Part shown: positions 24,099 through 42,155 of the stretch, one piece after another
Layout of the letters: each line of letters starts with the position of its first letter
Numbering within the stretch: the first letter of the stretch is position 1
Assembly (NCBI GenBank): GCA_022360815.1
Contig: JAKSCC010000257.1
Location: 1 to 42,155 of the forward strand
Reading direction: 5' to 3'
DNA: 42,155 bases
Source: Desulfobacterales bacterium
Lineage (GTDB): Bacteria; Desulfobacterota; Desulfobacteria; Desulfobacterales; Desulfolunaceae
Notes under the pieces: model-generated
Database searches by the model: none
Seen by the model: only the letters and a program-made list of their open reading frames with translations
What the model was told of the DNA's origin: nothing
Made by a program: the position numbers and the translations under genes

Positions 24099-24114
24099 TG
24101 GCACGGGCTTTGCT
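24099..24114 (+). promoter_or_regulatory. Consensus sigma-54 promoter upstream of the radical SAM gene
   Basis: TGGCACGGGCTTTGCT matches the sigma-54 consensus TGGCACGRNNNTTGCW at every defined position, with the -24 GG and -12 GC exactly spaced. The predicted transcript would start near 24125, leaving a leader of about 155 nt before the ATG at 24281. Confidence 0.75.
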
Positions 24115-24280: not shown

Positions 24281-25378
24281 ATGCGAACCCAACCCGACCC
24301 AGAAAGCGCCCCCAGGGTGACTTCCATCATCAAACGGGGAGAAAAGGGAAAAGGCCTCACCAAAAATGAGACCGCCACCCTTTTAAGAAACATTCCCACC
24401 CAAGGCCCTCTGTTTAAAAGCCTTCTTGCTGCTGCCGACGGGCTCACTCGAAAACAATTTGGCAACACAGGCGAAATACACGGCCAAATTGGCCTCAACT
24501 GGGATCGCTGCAGTCAGGACTGCCAATTCTGCATCTTCAGCGAGAGCTGGGGAGAAGCTGGCACCCCAAATGAACTCTCTGAAGACGATGTGCTGAAACG
24601 CACCCAGAGTTTTGCAAAAGCAAAGGTGGCCTCCATCTCCATCATGAGCACAGCGGACTACCCTTTTGAGCGTTTCTTAAGAATGGGAACTCTTGTTAAT
24701 CGTGAGGTTTTGGGACGAATGCCCCTGTTTGCAAACTGGGGAGATTTGAGTTTCGAGCAGGCCTGCGAAGTAAAAAAAGCGGGATACACCTTCTACTATC
24801 ACGCCCTGCGTCTCGGCGAAGGGGTCACCACAAAAATCGACCCCTACAAACGCATGCAGACCATTGAAAATGCACACCGAGCAGGTCTTCTGGTGGGATC
24901 GTGCCTGGAGCCCATAGGACCCGAGCACAGCGTGGAAGAGCTGGTGGACACCTTAAGCATCATGCGAGATCTTAAGATTAGCTGGATGGCCACCATGAAA
25001 CGGATTGCTCTCAATGGCTCTCCTCTGGCCAAGTACGGAGAACTCACCGATGAGGAATTTGCCCGCGTTACCGCAGTCACTCGCCTCTTTTTTGGCAACA
25101 GAATCTTCACCATGGCAGCCCATGAGCCCTCCAGCCTCTGCCTGCATGCCGGTGCCAACTTTCTGGTGGCGGAGCTGGGAACCAACCCAAGGGACACCCA
25201 ATGTGAAACCGAATGGGGCAGAGCCTGGGATGTGGAATCCTGCAAAAAAATGCTTAAAGAAAATGGCTTTCGTACTTTTAAAGGCAACCTTTTCAAACGC
25301 TACGCCCGCTTATCCTTGAAAAACAGGCACCTCACCCACCTGCCGCGAATCATGACCAACAGACTCTTTGCACCCTAG
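24281..25378 (+). CDS. Radical SAM protein, BioB/HydE-like core, function unassigned
   Basis: A 365-residue radical SAM enzyme. The cluster motif CX3CX2C is C77, C81 and C84 in DRCSQDCQFCIF. An N-terminal extension of about 70 residues precedes it (LTKNETATLLRNI resembles the helical region before the motif in biotin-synthase-like enzymes). After the motif follow SIMSTADYPF and GSCLEPIGPEHS, which suggest the SAM-binding part of a TIM barrel. It resembles the BioB/HydE/PylB group in length and layout but has no clear hallmark of any one. Its likely sigma-54 promoter sets it apart from its neighbours. Its stop is only 3 nt from that of the convergent DUF2400 gene. It could be a HydE relative, as hydF lies in this window, but I do not claim it. 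Confidence 0.85.
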   Translation: MRTQPDPESAPRVTSIIKRGEKGKGLTKNETATLLRNIPTQGPLFKSLLAAADGLTRKQFGNTGEIHGQIGLNWDRCSQDCQFCIFSESWGEAGTPNELSEDDVLKRTQSFAKAKVASISIMSTADYPFERFLRMGTLVNREVLGRMPLFANWGDLSFEQACEVKKAGYTFYYHALRLGEGVTTKIDPYKRMQTIENAHRAGLLVGSCLEPIGPEHSVEELVDTLSIMRDLKISWMATMKRIALNGSPLAKYGELTDEEFARVTAVTRLFFGNRIFTMAAHEPSSLCLHAGANFLVAELGTNPRDTQCETEWGRAWDVESCKKMLKENGFRTFKGNLFKRYARLSLKNRHLTHLPRIMTNRLFAP

Positions 25379-29837: not shown

Positions 29838-30434
29838 TTAGGAGAGAATAAAGGTCACCAAAACGGGCACGGCAATGGTGAGGACCACCCCGCTGAAAAG
29901 GGCAATGATGGCGTATCTCTTTCCAGAGTTCATGGTAATGATAGGAAGGGTGGTATCCATGGCTGTGGCTCCTGCAGACGCAATAGGAGCGGTTCGACCA
30001 AACCATGCCACCAGAAGCGGAGCCGAAAGCAGGGTAAAGATCTCCCTTAAAATATTGGAGAGAAGGGCCACGGTTCCCAAAACCTCTCCACGCATCTCGG
30101 TAATGTAGATGGATGAAATGCTGTAGTACCCAAGCCCAGAGCCAATGGCCATGGCATCCTTAAGGGTGATATCCTCCAAAAACAAACCCGCCACAGCCGC
30201 ACCGCCCAAAGATCCCGCAGCAATGGAGATCGGGATTAAAACAATACGAACATTGCTCTTTTTAAGAACAGAAAAGGTGGTGGAGTCCCCCCCAATACTG
30301 ATCCCGACAAAAAAAATCAGAAGATAAAGAACCCAAAGCGTTAAATCCGAATCCATGATAGCCGGGGAAAGATTCCCAAACAGCCCGGTAACCACTCCAG
30401 AGACAAAACAGAGAAGAATGATGAGACTACCCTT
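29838..30434 (-). CDS. LysO-family lysine exporter, C-terminal half
   Basis: A 198-residue membrane protein with five or six helices, matching the second part of LysO (formerly DUF340/YbjE): FFVGISIGGDSTTF, SGLGYYSISSIYI and LSNILREIFTLLSAPLL are typical. In E. coli the protein is one chain of about 300 residues; here it is split into two genes. The start at 30434 overlaps the end of the first half by 8 nt, so the pair is translationally coupled. It should form, with its partner, an inner-membrane exporter for lysine or its toxic analogues. The convergent DUF255 gene ends 70 nt away. Confidence 0.85.
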   Translation of the reverse strand, partial: KGSLIILLCFVSGVVTGLFGNLSPAIMDSDLTLWVLYLLIFFVGISIGGDSTTFSVLKKSNVRIVLIPISIAAGSLGGAAVAGLFLEDITLKDAMAIGSGLGYYSISSIYITEMRGEVLGTVALLSNILREIFTLLSAPLLVAWFGRTAPIASAGATAMDTTLPIITMNSGKRYAIIALFSGVVLTIAVPVLVTFILS

Positions 30435-30750
30435 CATGAGACACCTCCGACACCACAGCCTCACCGGTGCTGTCATCAAAGGTTCGAGCAAAAAAGAGCT
30501 TCCACACCAAACCGCAGCAAAAAATGCTCCCTGCAATGGCCCCAGCCGTTAGTACCAATGCATCCACACCAATCTTGTGAATGCTTGAAACCACGGTTTC
30601 ATTCAGCCCCACTGAAATACCAAGGACAAAAAGAAGAAGAAAGATCACCGCCATCACGATGCGATCAATAACGGCAAAAAGAGTCTCGACCCGCCGCAAA
30701 AGAAAACCCAGAACCATACCCAAAGCCATAATACCGAGAATTTCAACCAT
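30427..30750 (-). CDS. LysO-family lysine exporter, N-terminal half
   Basis: A 107-residue membrane protein with three hydrophobic segments (ILGIMALGMVLGFLL, IVMAVIFLLLFVLGISVGLN and VLTAGAIAGSIFCCGLVW). The LLLFVLGISVGLN block mirrors the FFVGISIGGD block of the second half, consistent with the internal symmetry of LysO. The start is put at 30750 because GGAG lies 6 nt upstream; longer in-frame starts lack a site. The polar tail overlaps the start of the second half by 8 nt. Split LysO pairs are known in other phyla, so this is not necessarily a frameshift. Confidence 0.8.
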   Translation of the reverse strand: MVEILGIMALGMVLGFLLRRVETLFAVIDRIVMAVIFLLLFVLGISVGLNETVVSSIHKIGVDALVLTAGAIAGSIFCCGLVWKLFFARTFDDSTGEAVVSEVSHEG

Positions 30751-30980
30751 TTCCTGCTCCACAAACATTGGGGGACACTTTACACACAAAAAAACCGGAC
30801 AAAACACGTTCCTTGGTAAGCCTCTTTATCAACCCATATTCCCAAGGATCTCAACTGTATGAGCGGGTATAGAAAAAGCGATGGGGAATGTCAACCAAAT
30901 AGCCTGAATTTAGGAGGGATTGTTATTGAACGGGTTTGGAAACCACCCCTTCTTCAAACGCTTCAAGGGTCACATCAATG

Positions 30981-34847: not shown

Positions 34848-35543
34848 ATGCCTGCCGTTGATATGAGAACCACCGTCTTAACCTACATTCTCGTCAACTA
34901 TCTCTACACTTTTGTGCTGGCTTTCACATGGTACCAAAGCAAAAATCACCGATGGGGAACAGGTTACATTCTTGCCGATTTCCTCTTCAAAGGCATCGGC
35001 ATGACCCTGGCCACATTTCGAGGGAGCATTTCGCCTTTCATCTCCATTGTTGTTGCCAACCTCTTTATGTTTGCGGGCACCATCTCAATGCTCTTCGGTA
35101 TGGCGCAATTTTTGAAGCAATCCCTTCAAAAGTGGCCCTATTTTCTTTACACTTTTGTCTTTACCCTGCTCTACAGTTGGTACGCCCTTGTTGAGGTCAA
35201 TGTGCGCATGCGCATCATCCTCTTTTCTGGTATGCTCGCACCCATCTTCATCTACATCACCTGGATGATATTTTTTAGAGCAGAACACAGCCTAAGAAAA
35301 CACGCTACCCATGCAGGGGTTACCTTTGCCCTTTTCGCTCTCGCTTTTCTGGGACGGGTTCTCTGTGCCATGGCGGGTGGGCCTGTTTCCCACTACTTCA
35401 ACCAGCCCATCTCTGACAGCCTCCTTGTTTTAACCTGCCAAGTGCTCTCCATCTACCTCGCCTACGCCATCTTGTTGATGATCAACAGCAAGCTCTTTGA
35501 GTTAACGGATTTGCATTTGGATACACATAAAAAAAGGCCTTGA
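34848..35543 (+). CDS. Multi-pass membrane protein, sensor-domain-like, unknown
   Basis: A 231-residue integral membrane protein with about seven hydrophobic helices, reminiscent of the membrane-embedded input domains found at the N-terminus of diguanylate cyclases and histidine kinases. Here no output domain follows; the C-terminus is a short basic tail. The starting ATG at 34848 has GGAG about 9 nt upstream. An alternative in-frame ATG is six codons further in. It lies downstream of the small Cys/Trp-rich gene and ends inside the left arm of a terminator. It could be a lone sensor half that works with another protein, or an unrelated small transporter. Confidence 0.65.
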   Translation: MPAVDMRTTVLTYILVNYLYTFVLAFTWYQSKNHRWGTGYILADFLFKGIGMTLATFRGSISPFISIVVANLFMFAGTISMLFGMAQFLKQSLQKWPYFLYTFVFTLLYSWYALVEVNVRMRIILFSGMLAPIFIYITWMIFFRAEHSLRKHATHAGVTFALFALAFLGRVLCAMAGGPVSHYFNQPISDSLLVLTCQVLSIYLAYAILLMINSKLFELTDLHLDTHKKRP

Positions 35544-35595
35544 TGAAACATCGCCTCTTCCACAGAAACGAAAACCTTCACCAAAGGCCTTTTTT
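35529..35595. terminator. Bidirectional terminator between convergent genes
   Basis: AAAAAAAGGCCTT (35529-35541) pairs with AAAGGCCTTTTTT (35583-35595) over a 41-nt loop that contains a smaller GATG/CATC stem. It flanks the stop of the membrane protein and that of the BCCT gene at 35628, with T runs on both strands. Confidence 0.72.
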
Positions 35596-35627: not shown

Positions 35628-37205
35628 TTACGCTGCCCGCATAAGGGCTTTCACTCTCTTCTCTTTTTTCACGTCAAACTCTTCTTTCATAAATTTGACA
35701 TATCCTGCGCACATGGTAAGCCCCAAAGCCAGAATAGGCAGGCCGCATACCACAACGGATGTCTGAAGAGACTTCAGCCCACCACTCATCAAAAGCACAA
35801 AGGCCATAGCCGCCATAACACATCCCCAAAACACCTTCAGTATATTGGGTGCATCCTCATCGCTCTGATTCTTCTCATAAGCAGAAGAGGTCATGTTGGC
35901 AAGAGTCAGAGTCATGGACTCAGCCAGAGTCACAAAAGAGAACACAATGGCAAGAATCCCCAAAACAGCAAGGATCTTCGGAAGAGGAAAGTGCTTCAAA
36001 AACGCAAAGAGTGCCACTTCGATACCATGCTCGGCAATTTCAGAAGAGATGGCGATATTCTGAAAATGTTCCATAAAGATAGAAGACCCGCCAAACACGC
36101 CAAACCAAACCACAGCAAAGAGAGTGGGGGCAAAGCAGTTGACCAGCACAAACTCGCGAATGGTTCGCCCTTTGGCAAGCTTCACAAGAAAAAGGCCCAC
36201 CATGGGGGCAAAGGCAAGCCACCAGGACCAGTAAAAAATCGTCCAGCCCCCCACCCAGCCAGACTGAAGGGCCGGCTCAAGGTAAAGAGACTGCCGAGCA
36301 ATGGAGCTGATGTAATCCCCAAGGGCCGACGTGGTATTATTCAAAATATAGAGGGTGGGACCAAACAAAAACACCCATACGATAAGAATAAAATAGATAT
36401 AGACATTGAGATTGCTGATCAGGGCAATGCCTTTGTGCAGACCGGTGCACGCAGCCACAATGTAAAATACGGCAATGGCTGCAATAATGGCAAACCAGAG
36501 AAGAAGCACCGATTTAAAAGCAACGCCTGATATGTACCCAATACCACCGGCCAACTGCATGGCACCGATACCAAGAGAGGTTCCGATACCGGCAACAATA
36601 CTGAAAATACACAGCCCGTCAATGAGGTTGCCCACAAGACCGTTTACCCGATCCCCAAGCAAAGGGTAAAGACCGGTGCTCACCTTAAACGCACGCTTCT
36701 TGTTGTGAAAGAGAAACGCCACACAAATACCAAATGCGGTGTAAGTGGCATAAGGGTGAAATCCCCAGTGGAGAAGCACCGTTCGAAGAGCCCCTTCGGC
36801 AGCTTCGATGGAGCGTGGGGCAAGCCCTGTAAACGATGCAGGGTTTGTATAATTTCCCAAAGGCTCTGCCACACCATAAAAAACAATGCCAATGGCAATG
36901 CCTGAAGTCAGTGCAATGGCAAACCATGTAAAAAACGAAATTTCTGGTTCAGCATCTTCACCACCCAACCGAATATCCCCGTATTTACTAAAGCCTGCCC
37001 ACATAACAAAAAGCAGAAGAAAGCAGAGCCCAAGGGCATAGAACCAGCTGAAATATTTGATACAAAATTTAAACGCATGGTTTGCAGCAATCCCAAAGCC
37101 TTCGGGAAACATGGCACCAACCAACACCATGGAGACCAGTAACACCGCTGGAGGAAGAAAGATTTGCTTGTTGATGATACCTAAAAAGCCCTTCAAATCA
37201 CGCAT
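35628..37205 (-). CDS. BCCT-family betaine/carnitine/choline transporter
   Basis: A 525-residue transporter with twelve predicted helices. The BCCT glycine motif GIAIGIVFYGVAEPL and the conserved tryptophan-rich helix GWTIFYWSWWLAFAPMVG followed by KGRTIREFVL are diagnostic. It is expected to take up quaternary ammonium compounds such as glycine betaine, carnitine or choline by ion coupling or exchange. Start at 37205 because GGGAGG lies just upstream; a longer frame to 37250 has no ribosome site. It is immediately downstream of an MttB-family methyltransferase with no terminator between them, so uptake for catabolism is more likely than osmoprotection alone. Confidence 0.93.
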   Translation of the reverse strand: MRDLKGFLGIINKQIFLPPAVLLVSMVLVGAMFPEGFGIAANHAFKFCIKYFSWFYALGLCFLLLFVMWAGFSKYGDIRLGGEDAEPEISFFTWFAIALTSGIAIGIVFYGVAEPLGNYTNPASFTGLAPRSIEAAEGALRTVLLHWGFHPYATYTAFGICVAFLFHNKKRAFKVSTGLYPLLGDRVNGLVGNLIDGLCIFSIVAGIGTSLGIGAMQLAGGIGYISGVAFKSVLLLWFAIIAAIAVFYIVAACTGLHKGIALISNLNVYIYFILIVWVFLFGPTLYILNNTTSALGDYISSIARQSLYLEPALQSGWVGGWTIFYWSWWLAFAPMVGLFLVKLAKGRTIREFVLVNCFAPTLFAVVWFGVFGGSSIFMEHFQNIAISSEIAEHGIEVALFAFLKHFPLPKILAVLGILAIVFSFVTLAESMTLTLANMTSSAYEKNQSDEDAPNILKVFWGCVMAAMAFVLLMSGGLKSLQTSVVVCGLPILALGLTMCAGYVKFMKEEFDVKKEKRVKALMRAA

Positions 37206-37293
37206 TGCACCTCCCTTTATCTCACATATTAAAACAATCCGATTTAACACGCCCCGGCTCTTATGGTTCGCAAGACGAAACCATCTGTGGGGT

Positions 37294-37338
37294 GAAGCTG
37301 CTCTGCTTTTGATTTTTCACATTCCACATAGCAGCTTC
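37294..37338 (-). other. Hairpin between methyltransferase and BCCT genes
   Basis: GAAGCTGCT (37294-37302) and AGCAGCTTC (37330-37338) form a perfect 9-bp stem over a 27-nt loop, with no T run. It probably affects mRNA stability or relative expression inside the operon; it is not a clear terminator. Confidence 0.5.
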
Positions 37339-37352
37339 TTGGTTCAACGGTT

Positions 37353-38786
37353 TTACGCTGCTTTAAAAGAGGCCTTTCGCCCCTCAATATAAGCGATCAA
37401 AGCCTTTTCAACTTCTGGATCAATGGCTGGTCTCTCGTAAGCGGCAAAACGCTTTTCGAGCTCAACAGAGGCGGCATCTGCAAGGGAGAGCCCCCCGGAT
37501 TTCATCCATGCTGATGCATCAGACTTGTTATAAAATGAGGTCTTATAAAAAGCGGTACGGCAATGCTTCAGTGTGTCGGGGTCCATCAAGTAGTTGCCGC
37601 CAATACCAACCCGTTGAATAGCCTCGACCCCAATGCTCTCTTCGGTGACAGGGACCGTGCGCATCATGCTTCGAACCATCCCGCACATCTCCTCGTCAAT
37701 GATCCATTTCTCCATGTTGCACCCGATGTAGGTTCCGATCATGCCGCAGGAGTGAAGGATAAAGTTGGCACCATTTCGTACTGTGGTGCTCAAGCAGAGA
37801 GCCCCCTCTGCCATGGACTGTGCGTCTGGTATCAAAGAGTCTGTGATGCTTCCACCGGTTCGGCAGGGAAGATTATAGTAACGGGCGATCTGGGTGGTCC
37901 ACGCGTTGATGATATAGGTTTCGGGAGCACCAATGGTTGCTGCACCACTCTGCATGTTGGTGGGGCAGGAGGTGGTACCATAAACCACCGGGGTACCCGG
38001 ATTTACAAGCTGGGACAGCACAACACCGGCAAGAATTTCAGCATTCATAAGGGTCACAAGGCCCGGCAGACTCACGGGACCTGAAGTGCCCCCCATGATC
38101 ATATTGATGATCGCCATGGCTTGGCCGTTTCGAGCGTACTCTACGATGGCACCGGCCATCTCTTCACCGTATTTCAGGGGCGAGAGCACATTCACAAGGC
38201 CCAAGCAAACCACTTTCTCTTTAAGGGTCTCTCGCCCCCCAAAAAGGATGGAGAGCATCTCCATGGTATCCCGGCACGCCTCAATGGTGTCGGTGCTCCC
38301 CATAAAAGGCTTGTCGCACATCAGCATATTGGCCTGGAGCATATCAAGATAAGCGGTCTCTGTGGGAACGTCTGAGGGCTCCACCAACTTGAAGGCGTTC
38401 ATGTCAATGTAGGGAGATGTTTGAACCAGTTTGCAAATCGACTCGTAGTCGGCAAGGGTTCCAGGACGCTGGCTGCCATCTTTCTCACAAATGTACGGAG
38501 CACCATAGGTGGGAAGAAAAACCCAGTCGTCCTCACCAATGGAGACACTCTTTTCTGGATTCCTCCCTTCCACAACAAATTGTGAAGGGGTTGTTGAAAG
38601 GCTTTTTCGAACGTCTTCCTCGGTAAAATAAACCGTATTGCCTTCTACTCGAAACCCATGGGACTTGAATATTTCAAGGGCCTCTTCATACATAAAGGCA
38701 ACCCCGGTTTTCTCCAGTATATCCATGGAATTTTTATGAATAAGACCCAGCTCACTCTCAGACAATGAATGCATTCGATCGTACAT
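37353..38786 (-). CDS. MttB-family (non-pyrrolysine) quaternary amine methyltransferase
   Basis: A 477-residue member of the trimethylamine methyltransferase superfamily. The whole frame is uninterrupted by an amber codon, so it is of the pyrrolysine-free type that includes glycine betaine methyltransferase MtgB and relatives acting on proline betaine, carnitine or gamma-butyrobetaine. Typical blocks include ILEKTGVAF, GTSGPVSLPG and GSITDSLIPDAQ. Such enzymes pass a methyl group to a corrinoid protein. GAGGT precedes the ATG. It has a sigma-54 promoter upstream and a BCCT carrier downstream. Neither a corrinoid protein nor a MtgA-type second methyltransferase is in the window. The substrate is inferred, not read from sequence. 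Confidence 0.9.
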   Translation of the reverse strand: MYDRMHSLSESELGLIHKNSMDILEKTGVAFMYEEALEIFKSHGFRVEGNTVYFTEEDVRKSLSTTPSQFVVEGRNPEKSVSIGEDDWVFLPTYGAPYICEKDGSQRPGTLADYESICKLVQTSPYIDMNAFKLVEPSDVPTETAYLDMLQANMLMCDKPFMGSTDTIEACRDTMEMLSILFGGRETLKEKVVCLGLVNVLSPLKYGEEMAGAIVEYARNGQAMAIINMIMGGTSGPVSLPGLVTLMNAEILAGVVLSQLVNPGTPVVYGTTSCPTNMQSGAATIGAPETYIINAWTTQIARYYNLPCRTGGSITDSLIPDAQSMAEGALCLSTTVRNGANFILHSCGMIGTYIGCNMEKWIIDEEMCGMVRSMMRTVPVTEESIGVEAIQRVGIGGNYLMDPDTLKHCRTAFYKTSFYNKSDASAWMKSGGLSLADAASVELEKRFAAYERPAIDPEVEKALIAYIEGRKASFKAA

Positions 38787-38868
38787 TTGCTTACCTCACA
38801 ATTCTCGATGGCTGATAAATTAATGTAGCCCGTTTTAAAAAAAGCTAAAAAACACGCAACCAGGAATG

Positions 38869-38884
38869 AGCAATTGACATGCCA
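38869..38884 (-). promoter_or_regulatory. Sigma-54 promoter for the methyltransferase-BCCT operon
   Basis: The minus strand reads TGGCATGTCAATTGCT, matching TGGCACGRNNNTTGCW at all but two positions (sixth and eighth), with exact -24 GG and -12 GC spacing. Transcription would start about 70 nt before the ATG at 38786. Confidence 0.72.
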
Positions 38885-38956
38885 CCTTTTCATCACTCAG
38901 AGCTAAAACAAGCAATAACGGCACTCTCATTACCAAATTAACCCTTTGAGGAACCC

Positions 38957-39017
38957 AAAAAAATAAAATCCCTTTTTGCTTTTTAAGTCCAAAAGCAAAA
39001 AGGGATTTTATTTTTTT
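38957..39017. terminator. Long perfect bidirectional terminator
   Basis: A perfect 27-bp stem, 38957-38983 with 38991-39017, over a 7-nt loop. Core arms are ATCCCTTTTTGC and GCAAAAAGGGAT, flanked by A and T tracts. It lies 26 nt past the regulator stop on the minus strand and insulates it from the methyltransferase operon downstream. Confidence 0.88.
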
Positions 39018-39043
39018 GATCCTTTCATCAAATTTTCTTTATG

Positions 39044-40564
39044 CTATCCTGCCTTTTCCTTAAACGCCTTTCGACAGATGCCATACTTTTTAATTCGATA
39101 GTGTATTAGCTGAGGGGATATGCCCAAAATAGTGGCAGCCTTTGCAGCATTACCCCGGGTTTTTTCCAAGGCATCTCGAATGGCGTCAGACTCTTGGACG
39201 CGCTTTACCTCAGACCAGTCCAGCGCCTCGGCCTGGAAAGTCGGTGGTATAACGGAAAGCTGATCCTCCTCCACGGCCTCCAGGACACCCGGCTCTGTAA
39301 AGGCACCGTCATCGTGCCACCGAACCCCAACCAAGTGATGGGTATCAATGATTACATCCCCATGCATCATATTCATGGCCCCTTCGATGGTATGCTCCAA
39401 CTCACGGACATTTCCAGGCCAGGAGGACGATTCAAACATGGCCATGACTTTCTGGGAGACCCCTGCCACATTCATCCCCAAGGTTCTGTTCAAACGATGA
39501 ATAAAATGATGGGTTAAAAGCCCCACATCCAAAGGCCTCTTCCGCAAAGGCGGAATTTCGAGATAGACTGCCCCCAGACGATACATCAAATCTTTTCGAA
39601 AAAAGCCCTGCTCACAGGCACGATTTAAATCTTCATTGACAGTGCTGATAATTTTTAAATCAATGGGAAGCTCTCGCAGAGACCCCACACGCCGCACACA
39701 CCTCTCCTGAAGGGTTCGAAGCAGCTTGGCCTGAAGCCCAATGGCCATGGAGTTGACCTCGTCCAAGAGCAGGGTGCCTCCGTTTGCCTGCTCAAAAATA
39801 CCGGCCTTGTCCACAGCCCCGGTAAAAGCCCCCTTTGAGGTGCCAAAAAGAATGCCCTCCAAAAGATGCTCGGGAATGGCTGCGCAATTGATCGCCACAA
39901 AAGGCTCCTTGTGACGCGGTCCATTGTTGTGAATGGCCTGGGCAAAAAGCTCTTTACCTGTTCCTGTTTCCCCGGCAAGAATCGTAGACGACGGCGAGCG
40001 CGATGCCAAACGAGCAGAAGCCACCGTCTTTTTAAAAAGCGAATCTTCACCAATAATGCTGTCAAAGGTATACCGGGTCCCGTTTTCAAAACAGAGACTC
40101 TTCTCTTTCACCACTCGGGGTGAAATATTTTGAAGATTCACCATGCGTGCACTCTGACTCGCCATTTCCGTGTAATCCCGAACGTTCTGATACTCCCACA
40201 TAAAACAGACGGCTCCCATGTGACGGTTTTCGTCGAAGATGGGAAACACATTGCAAATGGAGTTCACCATTCGTCCCAGATGGGTTCGGTAATAACACGC
40301 AAGGTTGAGTTCCGGCTGCCCAGACTTCAACGATTTCATGGTGGGACTAACGCCCTCATCGACGCGGTAAAGCTCTGTCACTTTTCGTCCCAGCACATCC
40401 TCACGCTTCATATCATCCATATGGGCGGCCGCACGATTGTAGTAAACCACGCACCCTTCCAAATTTGATATCACCACAGCCTGATGGTAGTGATCCAGGA
40501 TAGACAACACAGACTTCACCGACATCACGCCCGATGGCGCAATTTCTCTGATACCACCCTTCAT
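39044..40564 (-). CDS. PAS-domain sigma-54-dependent transcriptional activator
   Basis: A 506-residue enhancer-binding protein. Residues about 20-130 form a PAS domain (AVVISNLEGCVVYYNRAA). The AAA+ domain has Walker A GETGTGKE (198-205), the sigma-54 contact loop GAFTGA (245-250) and Walker B TLLLDE (264-269). A Fis-type helix-turn-helix occupies about 463-495 (GNAAKAATILGISPQLIHYR). It should sense a small ligand or redox state through the PAS domain and open sigma-54 promoters. The methyltransferase operon next door has such a promoter, so it is the likely target. The radical SAM promoter at 24099 could be another. Start at 40564, with AGGTAGG upstream. Confidence 0.94.
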   Translation of the reverse strand: MKGGIREIAPSGVMSVKSVLSILDHYHQAVVISNLEGCVVYYNRAAAHMDDMKREDVLGRKVTELYRVDEGVSPTMKSLKSGQPELNLACYYRTHLGRMVNSICNVFPIFDENRHMGAVCFMWEYQNVRDYTEMASQSARMVNLQNISPRVVKEKSLCFENGTRYTFDSIIGEDSLFKKTVASARLASRSPSSTILAGETGTGKELFAQAIHNNGPRHKEPFVAINCAAIPEHLLEGILFGTSKGAFTGAVDKAGIFEQANGGTLLLDEVNSMAIGLQAKLLRTLQERCVRRVGSLRELPIDLKIISTVNEDLNRACEQGFFRKDLMYRLGAVYLEIPPLRKRPLDVGLLTHHFIHRLNRTLGMNVAGVSQKVMAMFESSSWPGNVRELEHTIEGAMNMMHGDVIIDTHHLVGVRWHDDGAFTEPGVLEAVEEDQLSVIPPTFQAEALDWSEVKRVQESDAIRDALEKTRGNAAKAATILGISPQLIHYRIKKYGICRKAFKEKAG

Positions 40565-40685
40565 TACAAAACCTACCTACCTAAAATTTAAGTCATTCAT
40601 CTAAGCAAAACATTGATTAATATACTATCACCCCACCAAAGCATCGCTGCAGCCTAAAGACAAACCCGTTCGGTAAAAAAGGCAC

Positions 40686-40719
40686 AAAAAAAGCCCGGCA
40701 ACATCGCCGGGCTTTTTTT
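40686..40719. terminator. Terminator after hydF
   Basis: AAAAAAAGCCCGGC (40686-40699), loop AACATC, and GCCGGGCTTTTTTT (40706-40719) form a perfect 14-bp stem. It lies 11 nt past the hydF stop and has T runs on both strands. Confidence 0.92.
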
Positions 40720-40730
40720 AAAAGGCTCGA

Positions 40731-41936
40731 TCAAGCAAGGCCAAAGGGCCGAATCACCCGTTCCAACACCCCCTGAACCTTGGAGATGGCCACCCCATAG
40801 TTGGTGATGGGCACCCCGCGTCTCTGGCACTCCCGGATGCGTCTGAGCATGGCCGTGCGGTTCAGCATGCAGCCTCCGCAGTGAATGGCCAGATCAAATT
40901 TCTCCAAATCGTCGGGAAAATCGTTGCCAGAATAGAACTCAAAATTGAGATCCAAGCCGGTGTAGCGGGTAATCCATCGAGGAATCTTCACACGGCCGAT
41001 ATCGTCTGCCACCTGGTGGTGGGAACACGCCTCGCCCATCAGAACCGTGTCCCCGTCTTTGAGCTTATCCAGCATCTCGGCCCCTTCAACAAGGGCTTCG
41101 AGCTCGCCTTTGTATCGGGCCATAAGGGTGGAGAAGGTGGTCATGGGAATATCCTGGGGCACGTCCGCATCCACCTTAAGAACCGCCTGAGAATCGGTAA
41201 TCACCAGAGCCGGCTTTCGCCCCATGGAGGCCAGGGTCTCTTCAATCTCCCGCTCCTTCACCACAAGGCCCACGGCGTCGGCATCCAAGATATCCCTTAA
41301 AACCATCACCTGGGGCAAAATGAGCCGCCCTTTGGGCGCAGCCAGATCAATGGGCACCACACAGACCACCCAATCTCCCTCGTTGATAAGATCTCGCACC
41401 AGAAGAGGCTCCTTGCGAAACTCCTCCGGGGCCATGTTGATGAGGCTCTCTTTGAGCTCGCGCACCCCGTCCCCACCTTGGGCAGAGACCGATAAAACCG
41501 GAACCTCTTCTTCGGCACACCAGGCAAGATCCCCTTCCATGTCGTCACGCAGGTCTCTTTTGTTCAAAGCCACAAGAAAGGAGAGCCCCATGCGGCGGAG
41601 CTCGGCTATGATCTCCTTTTCATACGAGGTGATCCCCTCTTCTCCCACCACCACCACAGCCACGTCGGTTCTGAAAAGAACCTTACGCGCCGCCTGGATG
41701 CGAAGCTCGCCCAGAACGCCTTCATCGTCGAGCCCTGCGGTGTCGTAAAAGGTGACCGGCCCCAAAGGCAAAAGCTCATGGTGCCGCGCAACAGGGTCTG
41801 TGGTGGTGCCCGGCATCTCCGAGACAATGGCGATCTCTTCGCCGCAAATGGCGTTGATCAGTGACGACTTTCCTGCGTTTCTGCGCCCGGTAAGCGTGAT
41901 CACCAACCGGACACCCTTGGGTGCTTTTGTTGCCAT
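40731..41936 (-). CDS. hydF: [FeFe]-hydrogenase maturation GTPase HydF
   Basis: A 401-residue HydF. The GTPase part has P-loop GRRNAGKSS (17-25), switch region TTTDP, DTAGLDD (65-71) and NKRD (125-128). The C-terminal part carries the iron-sulfur ligands C304-x-H306 (ACSHH) and C353-G-G-C356 (HCGGC), the CXH...CXXC pattern of HydF. HydF is the scaffold on which HydE and HydG build the 2Fe part of the H-cluster before delivery to HydA. Start at 41936 because GGGAG lies 5 nt upstream; a longer frame has no site. No hydE, hydG or hydA is seen here, though partners could lie beyond the right edge. Confidence 0.95.
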   Translation of the reverse strand: MATKAPKGVRLVITLTGRRNAGKSSLINAICGEEIAIVSEMPGTTTDPVARHHELLPLGPVTFYDTAGLDDEGVLGELRIQAARKVLFRTDVAVVVVGEEGITSYEKEIIAELRRMGLSFLVALNKRDLRDDMEGDLAWCAEEEVPVLSVSAQGGDGVRELKESLINMAPEEFRKEPLLVRDLINEGDWVVCVVPIDLAAPKGRLILPQVMVLRDILDADAVGLVVKEREIEETLASMGRKPALVITDSQAVLKVDADVPQDIPMTTFSTLMARYKGELEALVEGAEMLDKLKDGDTVLMGEACSHHQVADDIGRVKIPRWITRYTGLDLNFEFYSGNDFPDDLEKFDLAIHCGGCMLNRTAMLRRIRECQRRGVPITNYGVAISKVQGVLERVIRPFGLA

Positions 41937-42155
41937 GTTACTCCCGTTATTTTTTTGCCTTCGGCGACGAGGTGCGGACACCTCGAAACCATAAGGTGAA
42001 TGCGCGGACGGATCATATAACTCGCCCCGTTATCCATGGCATTCACGCGTTACCTGATGGCACTTCCACCGCGTCGGACAAGCATGGATTGCTGTTTTTT
42101 TCTGTGTCAAACAAGCCTTGAACGCCGTTGCGATGTGCCCTGAGGAACGAAGGGC
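41937..42155. other. Right-edge region upstream of hydF
   Basis: About 220 nt with no supported gene. A perfect hairpin, CGAGGTG (41968-41974), loop CGGA, CACCTCG (41979-41985), stands 32 nt before the hydF start on the minus strand and may be part of its leader or the terminator of a gene further right. GCCCT/AGGGC (about 42137-42155) is a second small stem. Confidence 0.4.

Follow-up and report, generated by a model that had tools for sequence, protein, structure and literature searches.

On the minus strand of the window, the 42,155-nucleotide stretch of Desulfobacterales DNA analyzed here (contig JAKSCC010000257.1, assembly GCA_022360815.1), a sigma-54-dependent activator gene precedes an operon that encodes a pyrrolysine-free homologue of the MttB-superfamily methyltransferases and a carrier of the BCCT family. 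We read these genes, with a probability of roughly 0.7, as an inducible satellite module for the corrinoid-dependent demethylation of a carboxylated betaine, whose corrinoid partner would be encoded on another contig of the same genome. The most likely substrate is a carboxylated betaine that resembles glycine betaine, and we lean somewhat towards one other than glycine betaine itself.

The source assembly is a draft in 360 contigs, with a completeness of 93.1% and a contamination of 8.36%. The order on the minus strand is hydF, terminator, activator, bidirectional terminator, −24/−12 site, MttB homologue, BCCT carrier and probable terminator, with the following coordinates:

40731-41981, minus strand: hydF, upstream of the activator gene.
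40685..40720, minus strand: terminator between hydF and the activator gene, with a 16-bp stem that includes 7 G-C pairs.
39044..40564, minus strand: PAS-AAA+-Fis sigma-54-dependent activator of 506 aa, from open reading frame (ORF) and Pfam; likely the sensor of the module's substrate.
38964..39010, both strands: bidirectional intrinsic terminator in the gap between the activator gene and the mttB operon, with a 20-bp stem and T tails on each strand.
38869..38884, minus strand: −24/−12 (sigma-54) promoter TGGCATGTCAATTGCT, from a pattern match and its recurrence in related modules.
37353..38786, minus strand: MttB-superfamily methyltransferase homologue without pyrrolysine, 477 aa, from ORF, Pfam and tree.
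35628..37205, minus strand: BCCT-family carrier, starting at ATG 37205; the ORF opens at GTG 37250.
35528..35595, minus strand: inverted repeat with a T tail 3' of the BCCT gene, a probable terminator with a long loop, spotted by eye and absent from the output of the terminator search.

The ATG at 37205 is preceded by AAAGGGAGGTGCA, and we preferred it to the GTG at 37250 as the start of the carrier gene (ORF 35628-37250). A reading previously made from the DNA alone (the sequence-only reading) had described a BCCT gene directly downstream of a 477-residue MttB homologue, beside a PAS/AAA+/Fis activator with an intact GAFTGA motif; ORFs and Pfam agree with this description, and its coordinates and lengths are right. 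HydF was considered as a part of the module and rejected, since a terminator cuts hydF off from the activator gene. No RNA element was matched in Rfam at the gathering threshold between 34000 and 42155.

The MttB homologue (superfamily COG5598) matches the MTTB profile PF06253 with 476 bits over residues 4-474. It had been called pyrrolysine-free, which is correct: its frame contains no internal stop codon, and at the pyrrolysine column of the solved trimethylamine (TMA) methyltransferase it has Ile, where MtgB has Leu. Its best solved relatives are the glycine betaine methyltransferases 9yce and 2qne (403 bits, near full length), the latter being DhMtgB (PMC6855144). Identity to 9yce is 40.6%. 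The genome encodes an enzyme nearer to MtgB (47.3%) on another of its contigs, C23, and this is the nearest MtgB relative among the 14 own homologues compared.

We then placed the enzyme among its relatives. A scan of the class (389 genomes including the present one, with at most four candidates scored per genome) found the window-type enzyme in 6 of the 389. Orthologues with 64-67% identity occur in four other genomes, G025 (which agrees with the Desulfamplus magnetovallimortis locus), G212, G313 and G219, and G218 follows at 54%; next below comes a large group at about 44-56% identity that includes the C23 enzyme. Among named genomes a single relative was found, that of Desulfamplus magnetovallimortis (67%). 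The eight genomes of the window's own family gave no match above 50% besides the window enzyme, and searching 86 and 6 genomes in family scans (E 1e-173) yielded none beyond those of the class scan. For the tree, the 104 matches were condensed to 58 distinct rows. Of the 16 own MttB proteins it includes 14, as two truncated at contig ends were dropped. The window, Desulfamplus, G313, G212 and G219 enzymes form one clade (support 100/100) with G218 as its sister (100/98). The C23 type, with 34 rows, is separate (84/83) and joins the window clade as its sister group (93/89). The sole characterised MtgB in the tree, 9yce, lies outside the 44-row clade (100/100) that includes the window and C23 types, and the branch joining it to them is weak (89/45). 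All six genomes with a window-type enzyme also hold a C23-type enzyme, assigned by the tree for the own C23, G025, G212 and G218 and by identity alone for G313 (50%) and G219 (52%). Two partial matches stood at contig ends: that of G383 (56%) fell within the C23 type on the tree, and that of G270 (54%) was left out of it.

A docking study of DhMtgB placed the betaine among Tyr94, Asn199, Arg309, His345 and Phe353, the last of which is Tyr in Methanolobus (PMC6855144). The window enzyme has the same residue at the first four of these predicted pocket positions and, like Methanolobus, Tyr at the fifth. All five columns agree between the window clade (five rows) and the 34 rows of the C23 type (the fifth being Phe or Tyr). 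In G218 the fifth column is His, and the own C88 type carries Trp in the first column and Gln in the fourth. Beside the predicted pocket, two changes are fixed in the window clade, Thr93 (Gly in the C23 type) and Met349 (Ile in the C23 type).

The carrier matches the BCCT profile PF02028 over its full length (507 bits, 1-485 of 485), and scores 461 bits with the NCBIfam model for glycine betaine BCCT carriers, below the cut-off of 650. It is 35.5% identical to TmaT and retains, in TmaT numbering, Trp146, Tyr154, Trp325 and Trp326; it differs by Tyr151 for Trp, Phe329 for Trp and the sequence GIAIG for the GXGXG motif of the third transmembrane segment (TM3). The combination expected of a glycine betaine carrier, GXGXG in TM3 together with Trp at 329, is therefore lacking. 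The binding box differs from that of the carriers beside C23-type enzymes, with Tyr151/Phe329/GIAIG in place of Trp/Trp and AIAAG or GMGIG. Phe329 is present in all six window-type modules, even though the Desulfamplus and G313 carriers are only about 26% identical to that of the window. In contrast, the carriers adjoining C23-type enzymes (same strand, at most 400 bp away, in short or long flanks) have Trp329 in 21 of the 21 genomes where one was found, out of 34 examined. Phe329 occurs outside the window type in a G175 carrier, which lies beyond the activator on the other strand, in the own C14 carrier and in one of the own C123 carriers. TmaT being the best solved BCCT match, TMA was considered as the cargo and rejected, since the own C263 protein is the close TmaT relative (52.7% versus 35.5%).

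Turning to regulation, the activator combines a Sigma54_activat domain (196 bits) with a PAS domain and a Fis-type helix-turn-helix (HTH) in Pfam. It carries GAFTGA and Walker A motifs and thus has the domains of a bacterial enhancer-binding protein (AAA+, Fis-type HTH and a sensor domain). Its closest relative among the own contigs examined is the C23 activator (397 bits). A quick tree of the activators splits like the enzyme tree, with the window, G218, the first Desulfamplus piece, G212 and G219 on one side and the C23 type on the other (SH-aLRT 97 and 90 for the split). The activator of the Desulfamplus orthologue is broken into two reading frames (L059, 5822-6727 and 6832-7452), either by a true break or by a sequencing error. 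Judged by alignments and trees, activator, carrier and enzyme diverged in parallel: the predicted betaine-binding residues were kept, and the neighbouring residues and the aromatic box of the carrier changed.

The site TGGCATGTCAATTGCT (38884..38869, minus strand) starts 98 bp ahead of the ATG of the MttB homologue, and is one of two exact matches to the −24/−12 pattern across the window. Allowing one mismatch raises the number to 4, compared with a mean of 1.9 in shuffled sequences, and 10 of 100 shuffles reach 4; for this reason the "good" promoter of the sequence-only reading is weak when the window is taken alone. Its recurrence is what gives it weight. We examined the DNA ahead of the first gene that follows the activator, in 19 modules including that of the window, loci picked by the analyst where this first gene was clear, and accepted sites scoring at least 9/12 with GG and GC fixed. 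Such a site was present on the sense strand in 17 of the 19 modules and on the antisense strand in none, and in 5.8% of 3800 random 300-bp segments from the same loci; the misses were G005 (no site) and G308 (8/12). In a broader set of 27 upstream regions of 450 bp, 22 had a site of at least 9, and those without were G005, G308 and the own C84, C123 and C192, the C192 region beginning at a contig end. The genome also encodes rpoN (455 bits). A further −24/−12-like site, TGGCACGGGCTTTGCT, scoring 12/12, was seen on the plus strand of the window at 24099-24114, upstream of a radical SAM gene (24281-25378).

The genome as a whole contains 16 MttB and 13 BCCT matches, and 8 of the 16 MttB genes lie at most 160 bp from a BCCT gene (contigs C14, C23, C84, C88, C96, C123, C192 and C226), a large expansion of carrier-demethylase pairs for one draft genome. 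The sequence-only reading had proposed searching the genome for a corrinoid protein and an MtgA-type gene, and both were found on C23, where the order is activator, BCCT, MttB, BCCT, MtgC-like corrinoid protein and MtgA-like methyltransferase II. The MtgC-like protein scores 219.5 bits, below the cut-off of 370 of its model, and the methyltransferase II scores 315 bits with the methyltetrahydrofolate:corrinoid model, above its cut-off of 259. In all, the genome has 6 matches to the B12-binding_2 domain and 5 to the pterin-binding domain, some probably from other enzymes, as well as two RACo-type proteins and dsrA. Since a corrinoid protein, a methyltransferase II and RACo-type proteins are all encoded outside the window, the borrowing of partner proteins is possible. 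In G212, G313 and G218 a corrinoid protein gene stands at the same locus as the window-type enzyme. On the own contig C123 (L048, 2394-3242), a ketopantoate hydroxymethyltransferase gene is flanked by a BCCT gene on one side and an MttB-BCCT pair on the other.

We infer the following course. The PAS activator would sense either the compound or one of its products and turn on the sigma-54 promoter of the mttB-BCCT operon; the BCCT carrier would bring the compound into the cell, and the MttB homologue would transfer one methyl group to a shared MtgC-like protein with its corrinoid in the Co(I) state, most likely the protein from C23. The MtgA-like enzyme would then hand the methyl to tetrahydrofolate, RACo-type proteins would re-activate the corrinoid, and the methyl would presumably be oxidised for sulfate reduction. 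The sequence-only reading had spoken of a quaternary amine that is sensed, imported and demethylated in a sulfate reducer: the gene families, the promoter, the parallel divergence, dsrA and the partner genes all fit this, although that the compound is a quaternary amine is something we infer, and the carrier box differs.

The genes around the window-type enzymes hint at what the compound may be. A gene of the OCD family, best matched by the model for archaeal alanine dehydrogenase (213-227 bits, cut-off 409), is found at three of the six window-type loci (Desulfamplus, G212 and G219); it is absent at the window and G218 loci, and the G313 contig measures just 4.4 kb. It was found at none of 16 C23-type loci, several of which are cut by contig ends, and the window's genome gave no match to it. 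G212 and G219 have in addition a racemase-family gene ahead of mttB and, past the OCD gene, a second and distant MttB gene. The alanine-dehydrogenase-like and racemase-family neighbours in these relatives favour, by gene content, an amino-acid betaine over dimethylsulfoniopropionate (DMSP) or choline, and do not name the compound. A protein of the same racemase kind (Asp/Glu-racemase family, 440 bits) is encoded on the own contig C167 (L050, 586-5784), in one run behind two MttB genes and an octopine-dehydrogenase-family gene; judged by its gene content, this run may be a further module for the catabolism of some unusual methylated amino acid. Near the G212 cluster there is a Hydantoinase_A-family gene (L100, 754-2826), and strain DCMF has a gene described as N-methylhydantoinase A in its glycine betaine cluster (PMC9768040).

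Our most specific suggestion, which we put forward tentatively, is that the window module is a copy of the glycine betaine module whose sensor, carrier and demethylase were jointly retuned to a betaine for which no MttB enzyme has been assigned. The genes nearby in relatives would point to a chiral amino-acid betaine because of the OCD-family gene (3 of 6 loci), the racemase-family gene (2 of 6) and the second MttB gene (2 of 6), with alanine betaine (trimethylalanine) as the first candidate, a proline-type betaine next and DMSP as an outsider. A literature search, judged by titles and abstract openings among the matches listed, found no anaerobic demethylation of alanine betaine.

The module could instead be a second glycine betaine system that shares mechanism and substrate with C23 and is set apart by its affinity, regulation or carrier coupling. 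This would overlap with the mechanism favoured here, and it would explain why the predicted pocket matches that of the C23 type and MtgB, why the two types are sister groups (93/89) and why their activators are paralogous. It accounts less well for a distinct clade whose six genomes all have a C23-type enzyme as well, for Thr93 and Met349 fixed beside the predicted pocket, for the different carrier box (Tyr151/Phe329/GIAIG) or for the alanine-dehydrogenase-like gene at 3 of 6 loci, and we hold it to be unlikely, if well worth keeping in view. Much further down stands a sulfonium zwitterion such as DMSP, which would make the module an anaerobic DMSP demethylase of sulfate reducers. Marine sulfate reducers do demethylate DMSP to tetrahydrofolate. 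Phe329, which all six window-type modules share, has also been proposed as a possible marker of DMSP carriers (PMC11708041), but the solved DddT pocket consists of Trp320, Trp321, Trp140 and Tyr324 (PMC13270143), and Tyr324 is by spacing the 329 position, so that Phe329 is a weak marker. Moreover, the alanine-dehydrogenase-like and racemase-family neighbours are hard to account for with DMSP, and the substrates named for pyrrolysine-free MttB homologues are, in the cited texts, quaternary amines (PMC8604678, PMC12155760). DMSP was therefore rejected as the leading explanation, the Phe329 marker conflicting with both Tyr324 of DddT and the amino-acid-type neighbours, and we regard it as very improbable. 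Least probable of all is that the MttB homologue is a remnant or has some role other than catabolic methyl transfer, the operon being mainly an osmolyte importer: osmolyte import is the best-known role of BCCT carriers (PMC11708041) and the homologue has no corrinoid protein gene beside it, but its 477-aa frame is intact, the pocket residues and the sigma-54 site are kept, and relatives have the corrinoid gene at the locus.

Several observations weigh against the betaine demethylation module that we prefer. No corrinoid protein or methyltransferase II match exists on the window's contig, an absence already pointed out in the sequence-only reading, and none exists in the 19.9 kb around the Desulfamplus orthologue. 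Contig C23 could in principle come from another organism, given the 8.36% contamination. The pocket residues derive from published docking rather than from a ligand-bound structure, and they are not specific, the first four being retained in 5, 9, 10 and 6 rows, respectively, of 14 more distant homologues. Finally, the contrast at residue 329 is suggestive and no statistic, as it represents only about four carrier lineages and not 27 independent events.

The MttB superfamily comprises thousands of proteins (PMC8604678), and six members are given as having an identified physiological substrate as of 2025 (PMC12155760). The co-resident pair of a glycine-betaine-type module and its sister offers a route to a new substrate and to the residues that set specificity, and bears on betaine use by sulfate reducers. 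Among the matches listed in our search, no publication dealt with this module in sulfate reducers, which is not proof of its absence in print. Elsewhere in the window, a LysO-type lysine exporter is split across two overlapping ORFs on the minus strand (29838-30536 and 30427-30807).

Compared with known systems, the window enzyme is a near full-length homologue of MtgB (Desulfitobacterium hafniense 2qne, 9yce, Methanolobus MV8460), with the pocket kept and without pyrrolysine; unlike MtgB, it belongs to a clade of its own, and the mtgC- and mtgA-like genes adjoin the own C23 enzyme instead. The glycine betaine cluster of strain DCMF contains MtgB, MtgC, MtgA and two OpuD carriers (PMC9768040). 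As the cited text describes it, this cluster resembles C23 and, like the present loci, places BCCT-type carriers by MttB-superfamily enzymes, with corrinoid proteins and methyltransferase II, whereas the window has a sigma-54 activator and lacks mtgC and mtgA. With TmaT, BetP and DddT the window carrier shares its family; it keeps Trp146, Tyr154, Trp325 and Trp326 of TmaT, and differs by the changes of Trp151 to Tyr, Trp329 to Phe and GXGXG to GIAIG. In Eubacterium limosum, the gene for MtyB (gamma-butyrobetaine) adjoins a transporter and a RocR-related Fis homologue, a context described as reminiscent of that of MtcB (carnitine), and the corrinoid protein MtqC and the MtqA used with MtyB are encoded in other clusters (PMC8604678). 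Compared by gene context, the MtyB module and that of the window each unite an MttB homologue, a transporter and a Fis-type regulator, although the transporter beside MtyB belongs to the major facilitator superfamily rather than to BCCT and the regulator there is divergent rather than on the same strand. The use of one separately encoded corrinoid protein by MttB homologues is thus of a kind already published for E. limosum; what is new here is that the window enzyme is not its genome's nearest MtgB relative, and that, by its sequence, the module has evolved separately as a sister of the C23 type and probably acts on another betaine.

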